Assembly (NCBI RefSeq): GCF_011397635.1
Contig: NC_064774.1
Span: 1,769,449-1,833,448, forward strand
Source of the DNA: Epinephelus fuscoguttatus
Taxonomy: Eukaryota > Chordata > Actinopteri > Perciformes > Serranidae
Direction of reading: 5' to 3'
Length of the DNA stretch: 64,000 nt
The position numbers were made by a program, and so were the translations under genes. Below are positions 45,312 through 54,200 of the stretch, piece by piece (the first letter of the stretch is position 1; each line of letters begins with the position of its first letter). A model generated the notes under the pieces. It did no database searches. It worked only from the letters and a program-made list of their open reading frames with translations, and had not been told where the DNA came from.

Positions 45312-45351
45312 GTCATTCCTTGTCAGTTCACAGAATTACTCTGTGGCAGCA

Positions 45352-46598
45352 AATATGTCGTTTAATTGGATTTATTTTATTTTCTTCTGCCTCTTGTTAA
45401 TACGGATTTCTCTGCAGCATCTGGCCTACAGTACCTGTTCAGCACCTCAGACAGCGGCGCTGCGGGATGGGCTGGCTCTCATAGGGGGTCAGGTGCAGGT
45501 TGTAAGGTTTTAAAAACCATGGTTTACAATAACTTAATCCTCCTCCACTCAAAAATGTGTTTTCTTCTTGTTCTTACAGATGAATGTTTGAGCCTCAATG
45601 TGCAGAAAGATGTATGTGCAGAGCTTGACACTCGAAGGCTGTTTTCATATTTATCTGCTGAAAATGCTCATAGGATTTTAAGGGCTAGGGCTACTAGCCT
45701 ATGTTGGTGGCTTATGTAGCCTATGTTTGAACCATTTAATTAAAATATGTCTGCATATCAAAAGCCAAAAACTTGAATATGTCGTTCATTCTTTGGAAGG
45801 GCTACAAGCATGATTTGTGACATCACAAATATTTTAGAAGCCAGTCATGGTCCAATGTTCAACTTACACAAGTGTGATGTGGAGACTTGAAGCCTCCAGT
45901 GCACATACACTGAGAATGGACTTAACAGTGAAACCTTTGGGATGAAGAACAAAATTGACATATTGATAGATTCTAGCATTTTTAACGAGGGAGAAGGTGT
46001 AGATGTCAATTTAAGGATTTCAACAAGATAATTGAATTTTTTGTGGAAAAACTATATCATACATTATTATTCAAAGAGAAACATTTATATACATTAAAAC
46101 ATGTCTTGAAGGAATCTTTAATGATTAAATTATCATTTATTTTCATAAAAAAAGATAACTTAATTGTGATAATAAACACAATTATTTTAATAATAATTAT
46201 TATTATTTTTCTTTTAATTATTTCTTCCCCATATACACACATATACAAAATCACACATACAATAATATAACTCGAACACTCGAACACATGTACGCCCACA
46301 AACAGAGCAAGTTTTAACAGTACTATGCTACTCTTTTCTTGTTTTAATTCATGAAATTCATTAATTTTTGTTGAATTGATTCTTGATGCTTTGGCAATAT
46401 TGTTGTTATGATATTTACACCAATAAAGTAAATTTGAATCTAATTGAATGAATAAACCACGAATACTAAAAATCTGCAGCTTATACAAGTTGCTAACTAA
46501 CGAGGTGCTGAACAGGTACTGTAGGCCAGATGCTGCAGAGAAATCCGTATTAACAAGAGGCAGAAGAAAATAAAATAAATCCAATTAAATGACATATT
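45352..46598. repeat. 88-bp inverted repeats enclosing about 1.05 kb
   Basis: About 45354-45442 and about 46506-46596 are near-identical reverse complements (words TTTAATTGGATTTATTTTAT, TTAATACGGATTTCTCTGCA, CCTGTTCAGCACCTC). The interior has AT-rich sequence and fragments of other dispersed repeats but no transposase. The right repeat ends a few bases from the Penelope-like element. Confidence 0.75.
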
Positions 46599-46709
46599 TA
46601 TAGAAAAACAAAAAAGCACAAAGCTTGCTTCAGGCACACCAACAGAGCCAAGGATATTATAAAATGCCTTTATTAATTAGGGCATGTCAGTATAAAAATA
46701 ACTACGAAA

Positions 46710-46751
46710 ACGCCGACCGGTTTCGACCACACAGGGTCTTCGTCAGGGCGT
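46710..46751 (-). ncRNA. Hammerhead ribozyme fold, Penelope-like copy 1
   Basis: Read on the minus strand: stem I ACGCC pairs with GGCGT; core CTGACGA (46746-46740); stem II GACC-loop-GGTC; GAAA (46724-46721); a minimal stem III; then the GTC cleavage triplet. All conserved core positions are present. Penelope-like elements are known to carry such ribozymes with a very short stem III. Confidence 0.8.
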
Positions 46752-46966
46752 GAAAGAGACAAACCGACTCAGGTGTGCTGATCACTATTATAGGTAATCA
46801 GGCAATTTGACACATAAGGCTACATAATACAAGCATATCATACATTCAAATATTTGGAAACAGACTGTCAGATAAGTAAATATACATGAGTACTAATGAG
46901 AGAATTTTAATGAGAAAATTAGGTCATATATAATCTTCAACACCCACGACATTATAAAGAATACAT

Positions 46967-48103
46967 TTACAGAAAAGGTCTAAAATCTATCTCCTCATTG
47001 AGACCAGGATACACCAATGCGTCACATTTAAAAATCCAAAATGTTTCTCTCTGTAATAATTTATTAAGACGGTCTCCTCCTCTAATTGACTGTTCCACAT
47101 ATTCAATTCCCTCCACTTTTAGTAGGCTGTCATTATTATTATTATGAACATTATGAAAGTGGCGTGCCATGGGATAATCATTATTGTTGATTCTTATAGC
47201 ATATTTCTGTTTCGCCACTCTGTCTTTTACACGTCTTTTTGTGCGCCCGATGTAAAAACAGCCACACGGGCAGCTAAGACGGTACACTACATATGTGGAG
47301 TTACAGTTGATAAAGTGTGTATTTTTATATGTTTTCTTAGTTTTAAAATCTATAAATTCTTTCTGTTGTATGATATTGGAACAGTGATTACAGTTAGTTT
47401 GCAAACATGTAAAAGTACCCTTAGGCCTCTTGAGCCAGCTGTCTCCCTTCTTTGCTGGGAGATAGCTGTGCATAAGCCTGTCTTTTATAGTAGGGGCTCT
47501 TTTATGACAAAAAATGGGAGGAGACTGAAAAACCTCTGAAAGAGAGGGGTCACTTCTGAGAATATCCCAATTTGAAGAAATAATCTTTTTAATCTGCTGA
47601 GCTTGTTTGCTGTAATGTGTAACAAAATAAACACCTGATGTACCTTTTTTCTTCTGTCTGTTGGACTGTTGTAGGAGATGGTGACGTCTGATGGAAGCTG
47701 CCTTGGTCTGAGCTGTAGAAATAGTAGTCTTATTATATGATCTATCCAAAAAGCGTTTAGTCATATGTAGGGACTGTGTATGGAAATCTGAATCTAGATC
47801 ACATATTCTTCTTAATCTTTGAAATTGACCCAATGGGATATTATTTTTGAGGTGAAAAGGATGAAAGGACCCATAATGCAATACAGAATTACAGTCAGTG
47901 GGTTTTCTAAATAGTGTAGTATGTAATTTTTTGTCATTCCCTTTATAAATATTTAAATCCAAGAAGTTAATATTTTCTCTAGAGTTTTCCATAGACAATG
48001 TGATATTTTTACTTGTGTTATTGAGATAATGGTAAAAATCCATGAGGTCATTATGGCTGCCTTTATAAAGAAGAAGAATGTCATCAATAAATCTACAATA
48101 CAT
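46967..48103 (-). pseudogene. RT/GIY-YIG polyprotein fragment of Penelope-like copy 1
   Basis: A 378-residue open frame begins at the RT catalytic motif (YCRFIDDILLLYKG, with FIDD at the active site), continues through the RT thumb region and a Cys/His-rich stretch (CLQTNCNHCSNI), and ends with the GIY-YIG nuclease (TYVVYRLSCPCGCFYIGRTK, then RRVKDRVAKQKYAI). Upstream the frame is lost: relative to copy 2 there is a small deletion near 48195-48205, and the N-terminal RT is missing. It cannot be complete, but this part of the frame is intact. Confidence 0.85.
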
Positions 48104-48307
48104 TTTAACATTATCACTGTAAGGATTCTTTTCATGATTAAAGACATATTCCGACTCCCAAAGACCTAAATAAAGGCAGGCATATTCAGGGGTAAAGCTA
48201 TACTAGTTCCTTTACATTGTCTAAACAATCTATCTTGGAACAAGAACACATTATTTCTCCATACCCATTCGGTCAGCTCTACTATGAAGCCTGTAGGGGG
48301 CGTTAAC

Positions 48308-50595
48308 ACCTATGAACATGGCTTCTTATCATGTGAACATCCAAGACTTGCTACTTTCTATATGTTACCAAAAGTGCATAAAGAACCTAAAGACAACCCC
48401 CCTGGCAGACCAATTGTATCTGCGAATGGCACTCTTACTGAACCAGCCTCACAATGTATTGATTATTATTTAAAACCTTATGTTCATAAATTACCTTCGA
48501 ACGTGAGGGACACTACTGATGTTTTAAATAAACTGTGCCAGGTTGATGATGTGGTCTGGGACTTTATGGTCACTTTAGATGTTGAGGCACTTTATACTAA
48601 CATTGATCACTCTGATGGACTGAGAGCTGTCAATCACTATCTATCTGACAGAGATGGATTAACGCCCCCTACAGGCTTCATAGTAGAGCTGACCGAATGG
48701 GTATGGAGAAATAATGTGTTCTTGTTCCAAGATAGATTGTTTAGACAATGCAAAGGAACTAGTATGGGAGCTAGCTTTGCCCCTGAATATGCCTGCCTTT
48801 ATTTAGGTCTCTGGGAGTCGGAATATGTCTTTAATCATGCAAAGAATCCTTACAGTGATAATGTTAAAATGTATTGTAGATTTATTGATGACATTTTTCT
48901 TCTTTATAAAGGCAGCCATAATGACCTCATGGATTTTTACCATTATCTCAATAACACAAGTAAAAATATCAAACTATCACTCTATGGAACACTCTAGAGA
49001 AAATATTAACTTCTTGGATTTAAATATTTATAAAGGGAATGACAAAAAAATAAATACTACACTATTTAGAAAACCCACTTACTGTAATTCTGTATTGCAT
49101 TATGGGTCCTTTCATCCCTTTCACCTCAAAAATAATATCCCATTGGGTCAATTTCAAAGATTAAGAAGAATATGTGATCTAGATTCAGATTTCCATACAC
49201 AGTCCCAACATATGACTAAACGCTTTTTGGATAGATCATATAATAAGACTACTATTTCTACAGCTCAGACCAAGGCAGTTTCCATCAGACGTCACCATCT
49301 CCTACAACAGTCCAACAGACAGAAAAAAGGTACATCAGGTGTTTATTTTGTAAGGATAGACGGATACATCGGCCGGCCGATATATTGGGCCGATATTTGA
49401 GTTTTTTACTTGTATCGGTATCGGCCGATACGCGCGTGGGTTCGCGGATTTTTTTTTCCCTGGCATGATTTACAGACAGGCATCCACGGGCAGCTCTGTG
49501 TTGCCGGAAGACCCTGCAGCGCACAGGCAGAGAATCCTACTGTGTACAGTAGTTGTTGTTTTATTTATGCTTCAGCTTAAATATTTGTTTATTTTATAAA
49601 GACATTACTGGAAGATTTAAGAGCACTGAACTCTTTTTTTTATTTGAATTTATAATAATAATAATAATAATAATATTCTACCTGTTCTACCTCAACTTTC
49701 CATCTTGTTTTAGTATTTTTTACTGTTCAATAAATGTTTCTTATTTTAAACTTGAGACCTGTAATATTTGTTATCATTGTGTCATTTTTCTGATGTAAAT
49801 TGAGGGAGCAAAAGCAGTATCTGCCCCAAATATCGGCTCAAGAAAATCAGCAGTCCATAATCGGTCATCGGCTAAGGGTAATGGAAAAAAATCGGCATCG
49901 GCCCTAAAAAATCCATATCGGTCTATCCCTATAATTTTGTTACACATTACAGCAAACAAGCTCAGCAGATTAAAAAGATTATTTCTTCAAATTGGGATAT
50001 TCTCAGAAGTGACCCCTCTCTTTCAGAGGTTTTTCAGTCTCCTCCCATTTTTTGTCATAAAAGAGCCCCTACTATAAAAGACAGGCTTATGCACAGCTAT
50101 CTCCCAGCAAAGAAGGGAGACAGCTGGCTCAAGAGGCCTAAGGGTACTTTTACATGTTTGCAAACTAACTGTAATCACTGTTCCAATATCATACAACAGA
50201 AAGAATTTATAGATTTTAAAACTAAGAAAACATATAAAAATACACACTTTATCAACTGTAACTCCACATATGTAGTGTACCGTCTTAGCTGCCCGTGTGG
50301 CTGTTTTTACATCGGGCGCACAAAAAGACGTATAAAAGACAGAGTGGCGAAACAGAAATATGCTATAAGAATCAACAATAATGATTATCCCATGGCACGC
50401 CACTTTCATAATGTTCATAATAATAATAATGACAGCCTACTAAAAGTGGAGGGAATTGAATATGTGGAACAGTCAATTAGAGGAGGAGACCGTCTTAATA
50501 AATTATTACAGAGAGAAACATTTTGGATTTTTAAATGTGACGCATTGGTGTATCCTGGTCTCAATGAGGAGATAGATTTCAGACCTTTTCTGTAA
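48308..50595 (+). pseudogene. RT/GIY-YIG polyprotein of Penelope-like copy 2, disrupted
   Basis: Extends further 5' than copy 1: it shows RT motifs FYMLPKVHK, PGRPIVSANGT, TLDVEALYTNI, KGTSMGASFAPEYACLYLG and FIDDIFLLYKG. The frame shifts near 48970 (LSLYGTL-stop) and resumes in another frame to 49350. It is then split by an inserted element and resumes at about 49932 to end with the GIY-YIG domain (CFYIGRTKRRIKDR) at 50595. Inactive as it stands. Confidence 0.87.
49351..49931. mobile_element. 581-bp hAT-like non-autonomous element inside Penelope-like copy 2
   Basis: The termini TAAGGATAGACGGATA and, inverted, TAGGGATAGACCGATA match at 14 of 16 positions. The flanks TTATTTTG and TAATTTTG form an 8-base target duplication with one mismatch. 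The interior has repeated ATCGG words and an (AAT)n run near 49650-49675. Confidence 0.85.
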
Positions 50596-50795
50596 ATGTA
50601 TTCTTTATAATGTTGTGGGTGTTGAAGATTATATATGACCTAATTTTCTCTTTAATGCTCATGGAATATTTACTTATCCTTGTCTGCTTCTAAATATTTG
50701 AATATATGATATGCTTGTATAATGTAGTCTTAAGAGTCAAATTGCCCGATTACCGATATAAGTAATCAACACACCTGAGTCGGTTTGTCTCTTTC

Positions 50796-50837
50796 ACGCC
50801 CTGACGAAGACCCTGCGTGGTTGAAACTGGTCGGCGT
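50796..50837 (+). ncRNA. Hammerhead ribozyme fold, Penelope-like copy 2
   Basis: Stem I ACGCC (50796-50800) with GGCGT (50833-50837); core CTGACGA (50801-50807); stem II GACC with GGTT (one G-U pair) around CTGCGT; GAAA at 50823-50826; two-base stem III loop; cleavage triplet GTC ending at 50832. The stem II change relative to copy 1 keeps pairing by wobble. Confidence 0.8.
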
Positions 50838-51115
50838 TTCGTAGTTATTTTATATTAACATGCCCTAATCAATAAAGGCATTTTATAATATCCTTGGCTC
50901 TGTCGGTGTTCCTGAAGCAAGTTTTGTGCTTTTTTTCTACAATCGACTATTTTCAACTTCAAGAGCACCTGGCACTCATCTGGAGTCCACTACCTCTCAC
51001 CTGTGAGCACTCTGTAATTTTTCTTTGTTTGCTACTGGATCTTTGCTCTGATACTAAATGTGTTTAATATAATACTGCTGAAACCAGCATGGACCCACTC
51101 CAACCCTCTACTGAC

Positions 51116-51289
51116 CTCAGAGTCTCCAGTTTACAGTGTGGACTCTCCTTCAGATCACACAGCTGCTTCACATCTGAATCCTGCAGGAAGTTGTAGCTCA
51201 GCTCCAGCTCTCTCAGATGGGAGGGGTTGGACTTCAGAGCTGAGGCCAGAGAAACACAGCTGATCTCTGATAAACTGCACCAACTCAGT
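51116..51289 (-). CDS. LRR exon 4 of NLR gene 2 (duplication unit 1)
   Basis: 174 bases; its first half equals unit 2 ([11 protein letters not shown]), while its second half differs ([20 protein letters not shown]), which places a recombination breakpoint inside the exon. Confidence 0.87.
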
Positions 51290-54200
51290 CTGAATAAAGA
51301 ATAAATGATGTAGATAAAAATCATTAATAAAACAATCAGATGTGTTCAGGTGTTAAATGTGTAGCTCAACATTACTATGTCCTGATCAATGAGCTTTGCC
51401 CTAAACTGAGTAGAGTGACTTTGTCATTGTGTTATTGTGCTGATCCCAACAGGATGCAGGTTAAAGACTGGAAAATACAAAAAGTGAAAAACAGCTCTCA
51501 TAAATATCATTGACAACATGCTGCTACTTCAATAAAGATGTAGTGACTTCACCTCTTAAACTCTGCCAGCTCCACCAGTGGCTCCATCATCACTAACTCA
51601 TGTTGTGCAGCCAAACACAAATCACTTATTTAAAGAATCACGAGGGTAAATTTGAAATCAAGTCTTTAAAACAGGGCTGTTAATATACTTTGATGCAGTA
51701 GAGATGCTTGATTATCAGGAATGGTGTCTGTGAAATGTCCTGAACACAAGTATTTCAGATATTGTCAGGAATTATAGAGCAACTTTTCTTCTTTTTCTTT
51801 GTTTTTCATGGCACTTCCAGTTGTTTAGATTTTCAAGGTAGAAATGTGGGACTTTTACTCTGGAATATCTCAAAATACTGATACAGTAAAATACTTCAGT
51901 TCTGTGTCTGTATGTTGTCAGACATGTCCTCAACATCAGGAATAATCTTTTCATTTTCATTTCCAGAAATGAATAAAGAATAAAGACATTTCTCACAAGT
52001 TAGTGGTATTTACTTTTTAATTTATAAGGGACACTGGTAATTAATTTGACTCTTTTTCTGAATATAATCCAATTAATTGTATTTCTATAATGTTATGTAT
52101 TTTATAACAGCTTAATTTGAAAATCAAAAGTCATCATTCTGCTAACTTTGCTAAGTCTGTCACTAGCTCCCCCCATCAGCTCCATCTGGGCTGTTTGAAG
52201 GCATTATTCAATGTAACACATATTAATGTCAGTACATGGATGCACTACAGTTGTAGCATTAGCTGATGTCACCATGGAGATGAGAGTGACTGCCAGCTTG
52301 ACTGTAGTTCACTCTGCTACATTACTAACTGTACTGACTAGCTGTAGCTGGGTAGCTACCTCGCTAACACTGCAAACAGATATGATAAACATGAGTAACA
52401 TGACAGCTGTCAGCGGCAGGATTATATTTGACTTTTAATAAAACTTAACCAGTGTTTCACTTTTCAGCAATGTACCTCATAGTTTGCAACTATTACTGTG
52501 AGCACACCGCCTGACTCTGCTCCACCTTTTTAACTGTGATGCCTACCTTGGTGCCGGTGCTGAGAGTCTAGAAACAATGGGAGCGCCCTCATTTCCCATC
52601 ATGCCTGTCTAGTGCTGATCTACTGTTTATTTACAAGTATTGTGTTTTCTGTTAGGCCTATATGCTCCAGAATGCAAATGTGACTGTGTATTAATACAAA
52701 GTCACAGTGTTTATAATGTGTCTGTTCAGAACATGGTGGCTTATGTCGCTAATTGTCATTTTGTGCTGGTTTAGAGTTTCAACCAATAGAGAGGTGGCTG
52801 TTACATTTCTTGAGACCAGCTGTACTTTCTAACATAATCTGAACAAATGTAATGTTGGGACTTATAAAGAGCAACTATTGCATTAAGTATCAAATAAAAC
52901 CCTGTAAGAATATTATGATGGGATATAAACAGCTGTTGACATTAGCTGACAAGAATATTGAAGGTATGATTGTCTCTTTCATTCAGCCAGCCGGAGAACC
53001 AGGTGGTGTGTCCGTTTCGGCCCATGAGCAGTACGTTTGACACCCCTGGTTTACAGGTTAGGAGTGAATAATCCAGTCATTTTTCTGCTGAAATTAAAGT
53101 TATGTTATGCAGGATTGTTGGTTACTGTTTGTAAACACGTTCGACAGCTCAGGTGAGGGTAAAAGCCAACCCCAGATTCATTCTTGTTTGGCATTTCTTC
53201 TTGCTAAATTTGCATTTCTTTCAGTGTTGTATCTCTTTGATTCCTGCTGCTTACAGTCTGGCATCTGGTCCCCACCTTTTTATAAAGCCCTGACCTCACC
53301 TGAGTTTGTCTTTAAGGTTTTAGCTCCACATTGCTCTGCCACAGTCAATGGATTAAACCACTGAACAAGACAAATAGACTTCATTGTGGATCAGTATAAT
53401 ATCAGCCTGATGTCTGCAGTTTAGTGTCAACACAACTTTCACATCATAATAATCTCAGCACAGGAGTAAAAAATGGTGTCTGACCTCAGAGACTCCAGTT
53501 TACAGTGTGGACTCTCCAGAAAATCACACAGCTGCTTCACTCCTGAATCCCGCAGGTCGTAGTTGTCACTCAGCTCCAGCTCTCTCAGATGGGAGGGGTT
53601 GGACTTCAGAGCTGAGGCCAGAGAAACACAGCTGATCTCTGATAAACTGCACCAACTCAGTCTGAATAAAGAATAAATGATGTAGATAAAAATCATTAAT
53701 AAAACAATCAGATGTGTTCAGGTGTTAAATGTGTAGCTCAACATTACTATGTCCTGATCAATGAGCTTTGCCCTAAACTGAGTAGAGTGACTTTGTCATT
53801 GTGTTATTGTGCTGATCCCAACAGGATGCAGGTTAAAGACTGGAAAATACAAAAAGTGAAAAACAGCTCTCATAAATATCATTGACAACATGCTGCTACT
53901 TCAATAAAGATGTAGTGACTTCACCTCTTAAACTCTGCCAGCTCCACCAGTGGCTCCATCATCACTAACTCATGTTGTGCAGCCAAACACAAATCACTTA
54001 TTTAAAGAATCACGAGGGTAAATTTAAGTTGAAATCAAGTCTTTAAAACAGGGCTGTTAATATACTTTGATGCAGTAGAGATGCTTGATTATCAGGAATG
54101 GTGTCGTGTGAAATGTCCTGAACACAAGTATTTCAGATATTGTCAGGAATTATAGAGCAACTTTTCTTCTTTTTCTTTGTTTTTCATGGCACTTCCAGTT

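Follow-up and report, generated by a model that had tools for sequence, protein, structure and literature searches.

The 64,000-nucleotide (nt) stretch of Epinephelus fuscoguttatus DNA analysed here (contig NC_064774.1, positions 1,769,449 to 1,833,448 of the forward strand; hereafter the window) contains two copies of a retroelement, c1 and c2, that lie head to head. Each carries, close to its 3' end, a 42-nt motif laid out as a hammerhead ribozyme (Table 1). From their layout and their relatives elsewhere in the genome, we judge both to be real hammerhead motifs of the minimal type I, and the elements that carry them to be Penelope-like.

Both motifs read ACGCC-CTGACGA-A-GACC, followed by a loop, the 3' strand of stem II and GAA-AC-NN-GT-C-GGCGT. 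The variable parts are the loop (CTGTGT in c1, CTGCGT in c2), the 3' strand of stem II (GGTC and GGTT) and the loop of stem III (CG and TG). Stem I has 5 bp in each, the core CUGANGA plus GAAA is present in each, and both end in GT-C, which provides the A15.1-U16.1 pair and an H17 other than G. A single additional A, absent from the description in an earlier note on this DNA, stands between CTGACGA and stem II in both. A descriptor of this form (CTGANGA, an optional extra nucleotide, a 4-bp stem II and GAAAC[NN]GTH) matched the two motifs and nothing else in the window, each time with a 5-bp stem I, and had 0 matches in 60 first-order Markov random windows; a looser core pattern stood at chance level, with 52 window matches against a shuffle mean of 29.4, a number reached by 6 of 100 shuffles. 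The predicted cut falls between 46715 (C17) and 46714 on the minus strand in c1, and between 50832 (C17) and 50833 on the plus strand in c2. The two layouts that the earlier note had described were thus recovered by the sequence itself, by the descriptor and by the covariance model described below, and the 5' ends it had expected, at 46714 (minus) and 50833 (plus), agree with the site predicted from the layout.

Table 1. Features of the c1/c2 locus, in positions of the window.
Feature	Position	Strand	Basis or remark
Penelope-like copy c1, 5'-truncated, 3' end at about 46598	46598..48306	-	BLAST/alignment with other copies; inverted repeats I1-I5, I7
Penelope-like copy c2, 5'-truncated, similarity to other copies ending near 51033	48299..51033	+	alignment with copies
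Hammerhead motif of c1	46710..46751	- (read 46751->46710)	layout, R1 match, descriptor
Hammerhead motif of c2	50796..50837	+	layout, R1 match, descriptor
c1 open frame, 411 aa: end of reverse transcriptase and GIY-YIG endonuclease, C-terminal RETFWIFK..GLNEE	46967..48202	-	
Open frame with c2 reverse transcriptase piece, 275 aa	48170..48997	+	RVT_1 match below cut-off
Open frame with c2 endonuclease piece, 237 aa	49882..50595	+	
c2 3' untranslated stretch	50596..50795	+	copy comparison
Tail downstream of c2 hammerhead, common to other copies	50838..51033	+	copy comparison
c1/c2 head-to-head junction GGCGTTAACACC, near-palindrome	48299..48310		comparison with native sites
Insert in c2 with terminal inverted repeats	49352..49933		flanked by ATTTTGT at 49345-49351 and 49934-49940

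The nature of the host element is indicated by its open frames. In the c1 frame we take CRFIDDI to mark the reverse transcriptase (RT) and VVY...FYIG the GIY-YIG endonuclease. The order of the motifs, with VVY...YIG last, places GIY-YIG C-terminal to RT. This 411-aa frame had no Pfam match and no PDB sequence match; a frame at another locus, L126, shares 34% identity with it over 201 aa (E 2e-31), matches GIY-YIG at E 0.0028, below the cut-off, and adjoins an RVT_1 frame above the cut-off (38.1 bits). Two hammerheads flank the RT/endonuclease element at L126, head to head as in the window. The c2 RT piece matches RVT_1 at E 0.00063, and a shorter version of it at 0.00045, both below the Pfam cut-off; the shorter piece has at least 151 matches in its own genome (150 of 515 candidates scored). 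Of 27 RT loci typed on four contigs, 5 have a hammerhead core 1.3-2.6 kb downstream on the same strand, to which the window adds two further linkages, and none has a same-strand core in the 3 kb upstream. Both window motifs likewise lie near the 3' ends of their elements, that of c2 some 200 nt past the coding part. The combination of RT, GIY-YIG and hammerhead identifies a Penelope-like element, so that the host is, on this evidence, most plausibly a Penelope-like retroelement present in two 5'-truncated copies, and the Penelope-like context proposed in the earlier note is borne out by the frames and by the RT-linked cores. A full unit of the window family with two direct pseudo-long terminal repeats (pseudo-LTRs) was not found among the fetched loci.

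The motif is abundant in the genome. A search of 1.05 Gb (26 contigs) with CTGANGAAG-NN-C-loop-G-NN-CGAAAC, a pattern that leaves the two inner pairs of stem II free, gave 586 matches vs 2 for a reversed control, and a narrower pattern gave 302 vs 0. The 109 distinct rows compared below come from loci fetched on few contigs and represent a part of the 586 places; their core, extra A and outer G-C pairs of stem II were fixed by the search pattern. The free positions of stem II are complementary in 98 of the 109 rows and fall into six classes (AG/CT 29, AC/GT 23, GT/AC 14, GG/CC 13, AT/AT 10, GC/GC 9). After 21 rows without C[NN]GTH had been dropped, the remainder formed 25 clusters, and stem II pairs in 24 of these, where shuffling gives 9.3 on average and at most 18. 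Positions 1-5 of stem I pair in 21, 22, 16, 13 and 10 clusters (shuffled means 17.3, 11.6, 12.2, 9.1 and 9.3); none of 10,000 shuffles attained the observed sum, and positions 1 and 2 are significant individually. H17 is other than G in 87 of the 89 rows that have GT in place, and G in the other 2. The evidence for a conserved RNA is that from other, older families and not that from the c1/c2 pair.

The covariance-model check that the earlier note had proposed came out divided: Rfam returned no match, and a model (R1) built from 22 sequences of other families of the same genome, the window's family being excluded, matched c1 at E 1.4e-6 (30.8 bits) and c2 at E 3e-4 (22.8 bits), with the next match at E 0.41. 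R1 and an alignment, A2, share these 22 sequences, which were hand-picked once the cluster pairing result was known; the clusters omitted are L061, L073, L131 and L134 (weak pairing) and L041 and L057 (a 2-nt insert), and L045 was unused. In A2, 82.3% of cells are paired vs 63.9% when shuffled, and covariation is 0.607 vs 0.240, figures biased towards structure because the sequences were hand-picked; two of five measures were not above the shuffles, being reached by 239/500 and 330/500. The 25-cluster test is the fairer of the two.

Stem III bears on the form in which such a ribozyme would act. Its string is its own reverse complement in 84 of the 89 rows, automatically so in the 68 that lack an insert (ACGT). 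Among the 21 with a 2-nt insert, 16 are palindromic (ACATGT 11, ACCGGT 4, ACGCGT 1), and four of the five others are the products expected of CpG decay from ACCGGT. Since these rows come from few families, the pattern is suggestive: a palindromic string may allow a dimer, and it fits the published dimer action of such ribozymes, minimal hammerheads of this type being reported to act as dimers in the accessible text of one review (PMC7761336); PMC6155905 likewise covers minimal dimer-type hammerheads of Penelope-like elements. Within a monomer, stem III would consist of A-C/G-U alone with a 0- or 2-nt loop, so that the dimer would most likely be the active form, ACCGGU (c1) or ACUGGU (c2) of two RNAs or of tandem units pairing with each other. 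The account that we regard as very probable is that these are dimer-acting minimal type I hammerheads of the 3' pseudo-LTR or tail of a Penelope-like element, seen here in two 5'-truncated, head-to-head copies. In a living element the RNA would most likely be cleaved between C17 and the first base of stem I, and a likely use would be the cutting of tandem or read-through transcripts into units. Of this account, the motif, its covariation between families, its link to an RT/endonuclease element and the head-to-head layout are observed, while cleavage, dimer form and role are inferred.

Several observations weigh against this account. At the gathering threshold Rfam gave 0 matches in the whole window, and with E up to 10 it gave 0 around c1 and just two weak unrelated matches around c2; single-strand folding energy is unremarkable (z -0.83, -0.31, +0.27 and +0.88). 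Rfam hammerhead models expect helix III. Reviews, in their accessible parts, describe minimal hammerhead forms without helix III; as Rfam misses this form, genome annotation will miss it too. A silent Rfam and an ordinary folding energy would also suit a chance resemblance, in which an ordinary repeat happens to spell a hammerhead core. That reading is contradicted by the empty random windows, by the excess over the reversed control in the genome and by two stems that covary across families; the last of these already refutes it, and we give it virtually no probability. In the row set the expected GT is missing from 20 of 109 rows, and positions 3-5 of stem I are not significant individually (P 0.06, 0.06 and 0.46). 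The energy model does not allow a stem III of 2 bp to close over a 2-nt loop within a single molecule. R1 also gives 23.5 bits to L004, a copy with a broken core, so that an R1 score is no proof of activity.

A further difficulty comes from the single case studied by biochemistry, the Poseidon element of Anolis carolinensis (PAc). According to the accessible part of that work, the PAc ribozyme required addition of the element protein to cut, insertion in vitro was unaffected by ribozyme mutations, and RNA ends at the site were not observed (PMC11167929). The dependence on protein and the unaffected insertion speak for a rival in which the motif is kept as an RNA hairpin, for protein binding or to initiate reverse transcription, with self-cleavage a by-product or lost; so does stem II, which is a plain hairpin and has more support than any other part of the structure. 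A binding hairpin, however, would not require GAAAC followed by GTH, a non-G H17 in 87 of 89 rows or pairing of the two distant strands of stem I, and we hold this rival to be unlikely, though the strongest of those weighed here.

The fate of copies within the window's own family belongs on the same adverse side. The alignment of c1 with c2 covers 1680 positions and shows 80 differences: the mostly coding 48206-50595 has 31 of them, the 3' untranslated stretch of 200 nt has 33, the motif has 3 and the next 98 nt have 13, counts that near indels depend on the alignment. All three motif differences are C<->T at CpG sites. Over ten family copies and all columns, the motif diverges by 6.8% vs 5.1% in the 95-nt tail; when CpG columns are left out the values are 2.2% and 4.0%, with 3/28 and 13/89 columns variable. 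The core is broken in four of the ten (G8->A in L004 and L011b, G12->A in L005, A14->G in L007), and the motif is, as far as these copies can tell, not clearly constrained within the family. The earlier note had seen functional constraint in a core that was conserved while only loops and wobble positions changed, and this does not hold in view of the CpG transitions, the lack of clear constraint and the broken cores. The change of GGTC to GGTT that it described is present and does leave a G-U pair; it sits at the stem II pair adjoining the core and, together with the lower R1 score of c2 (22.8 vs 30.8 bits), reads as decay. Family copies decay after insertion like their surroundings, and the wobble is no evidence for function. 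The window copies are best seen as decaying, c1 with a complete motif, c2 with three CpG changes and neither with a sense partner in cis.

We rejected a start of the short copies at the cleavage site, as none of them begins at the cut: the start lies 12, 7 and 0 nt ahead of the motif in L002, L008 and L007, within the motif in L016 and beyond it in L017. Across 46907-50655 the coding part differs little between c1 and c2 and the 3' untranslated stretch strongly (the 31 and 33 differences given above), and other copies show the same two types of untranslated stretch, which suggests either strong constraint on the coding part or two subfamilies that have exchanged their 3' ends.

The arrangement of the two copies restricts what they could do together. 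They meet inside the RT region, with the hammerheads at the outer ends; being inverted and pointing outward, they would give a locus transcript in which one motif is sense and the other antisense, and in no case both sense, and the pair of the earlier note hence cannot make a tandem (cis) ribozyme dimer. The native sites corresponding to the junction, GGATTAACGCC and GGATTAACACC, were read in L010 and L011; both contain GGATTAAC, so that the copies share at the join the TTAA (48303-48306) common to the two sites. Head-to-head pairs recur: among 100 places listed of the 586, the eight neighbouring pairs within 10 kb comprise six minus-then-plus, two same-strand and no plus-then-minus, and the window family has a second head-to-head locus, L011. 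On further contigs, rows of the narrower pattern contribute another minus-then-plus pair, a single plus-then-minus pair whose members belong to different classes and, on C5, a same-strand array of five. Such recurrence could mean that the two copies form one unit, in which the inverted ribozymes cooperate, for instance to cut transcripts of both strands. We consider this highly improbable. Each transcript direction would contain one sense ribozyme, and c2 is interrupted by an insert; moreover, self-priming, to which head-to-head Penelope copies with palindromic joins are attributed in the accessible text of PMC3846280, explains the layout, the junction being near-palindromic with a shared TTAA.

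The recurrence also bears on a reading in which the hammerhead is kept less for transcript processing than as a device for dimerisation and strand switching, stem III joining two RNAs and its symmetry aiding head-to-head copies. In L071 and L101 the inverted junction falls within or at the ribozyme; of nine family loci, three (L002, L007 and L008) begin at most about 12 nt upstream of the motif; and most close neighbours in the genome are arranged head to head (the six of eight among the places listed). Even so, we think this reading distinctly unlikely and prefer the processing of transcripts by dimer-acting hammerheads.

Other arrangements of cores were also seen. In L071 and L101 the head-to-head hammerheads are 55-61 nt apart and their joins are short palindromes of hammerhead sequence. 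Loci L123-L125 (G000:C5:399100-428900) hold five same-strand cores at a spacing of about 6.85 kb with same-strand RT matches between them, an array in which cis dimers could form; its L124 unit has GGC instead of GTC. In L039 (G000:C1:14049051, 14049105) two tandem same-strand cores are 54 nt apart.

Minimal type I hammerheads are reported in Penelope-like elements and Terminons in the accessible parts of PMC7761336 and PMC6155905, and 2020 reviews, to judge from the portion of PMC7761336 at hand, describe the role of the Penelope-like hammerheads as unknown. The window motifs would be a further case of this published kind, with predicted cleavage activity; a search without subscription journals found no literature on this particular element. 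No feature was shown to set the window family apart from the known hammerheads cited to Lunse et al. (2017); its stem I, of 5 bp, is perfect and its stem III holds a 2-nt insert, whereas 68 of 89 rows lack the insert. PAc resembles the window copies in combining RT and GIY-YIG with a hammerhead of stems I and II in a pseudo-LTR, and differs in that its ribozyme overlaps the start of the open reading frame, at least in the available text (PMC11167929), whereas the window motifs lie about 200 nt past the end of the frame. Penelope elements of Adineta vaga are, in the text accessible of PMC3846280, likewise head to head, with junction palindromes and 5' truncation, but there the inverted part is mostly pseudo-LTR, and in the window two long pieces meet in the RT region; that text makes no mention of hammerheads.

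The extra A of the plus-strand hammerhead of CChMVd lies after A9. The accessible description of this hammerhead notes, as in the window, an extra A in the consensus core (PMC3705267); CChMVd is a plant viroid, no relation is implied, and on the window side the extra A was fixed in the search pattern. Animal non-LTR retrozymes share with the window copies a type I hammerhead with a weak helix III, some of them acting only as dimers, according to the part of PMC7229834 available; they are short and non-coding, whereas the window copies have RT and endonuclease frames, and identity with such retrozymes was accordingly rejected. For the window itself the result is an ordinary one. With hundreds of motifs and many families showing compensatory changes, stem I, stem II and the dimer stem III can be tested directly by swapping.

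Relatives of the element protein were not found in viral contigs and phages. The stem II pattern occurs in viral contigs in 15 stretches chosen by pattern, some with weak R1 E-values (best L023, 0.006). One viral contig, L031, has two direct CTGACGAAGGTC..GACCGAAAC hairpins at 2018-2048 and 2837-2867, 819 nt apart and without the hammerhead GTH.

The insert in c2 is about 582 bp long, has the ends AAGGATAGAC... and ...GTCTATCCCTATA, and has its empty site in c1; it resembles a non-autonomous DNA transposon of the hAT type. DNA flanking c1 is duplicated in inverted orientation as a 98-nt inverted repeat (99%; 45351-45448 and 46502-46599), the right arm of which abuts the 3' end of c1. Further downstream, a 300-nt direct repeat (99%) spans 51189-51488 and 53561-53860, next to an 84-nt repeat of 87%; the 300-nt repeats look like leucine-rich repeat exons of a fish immune-type gene.

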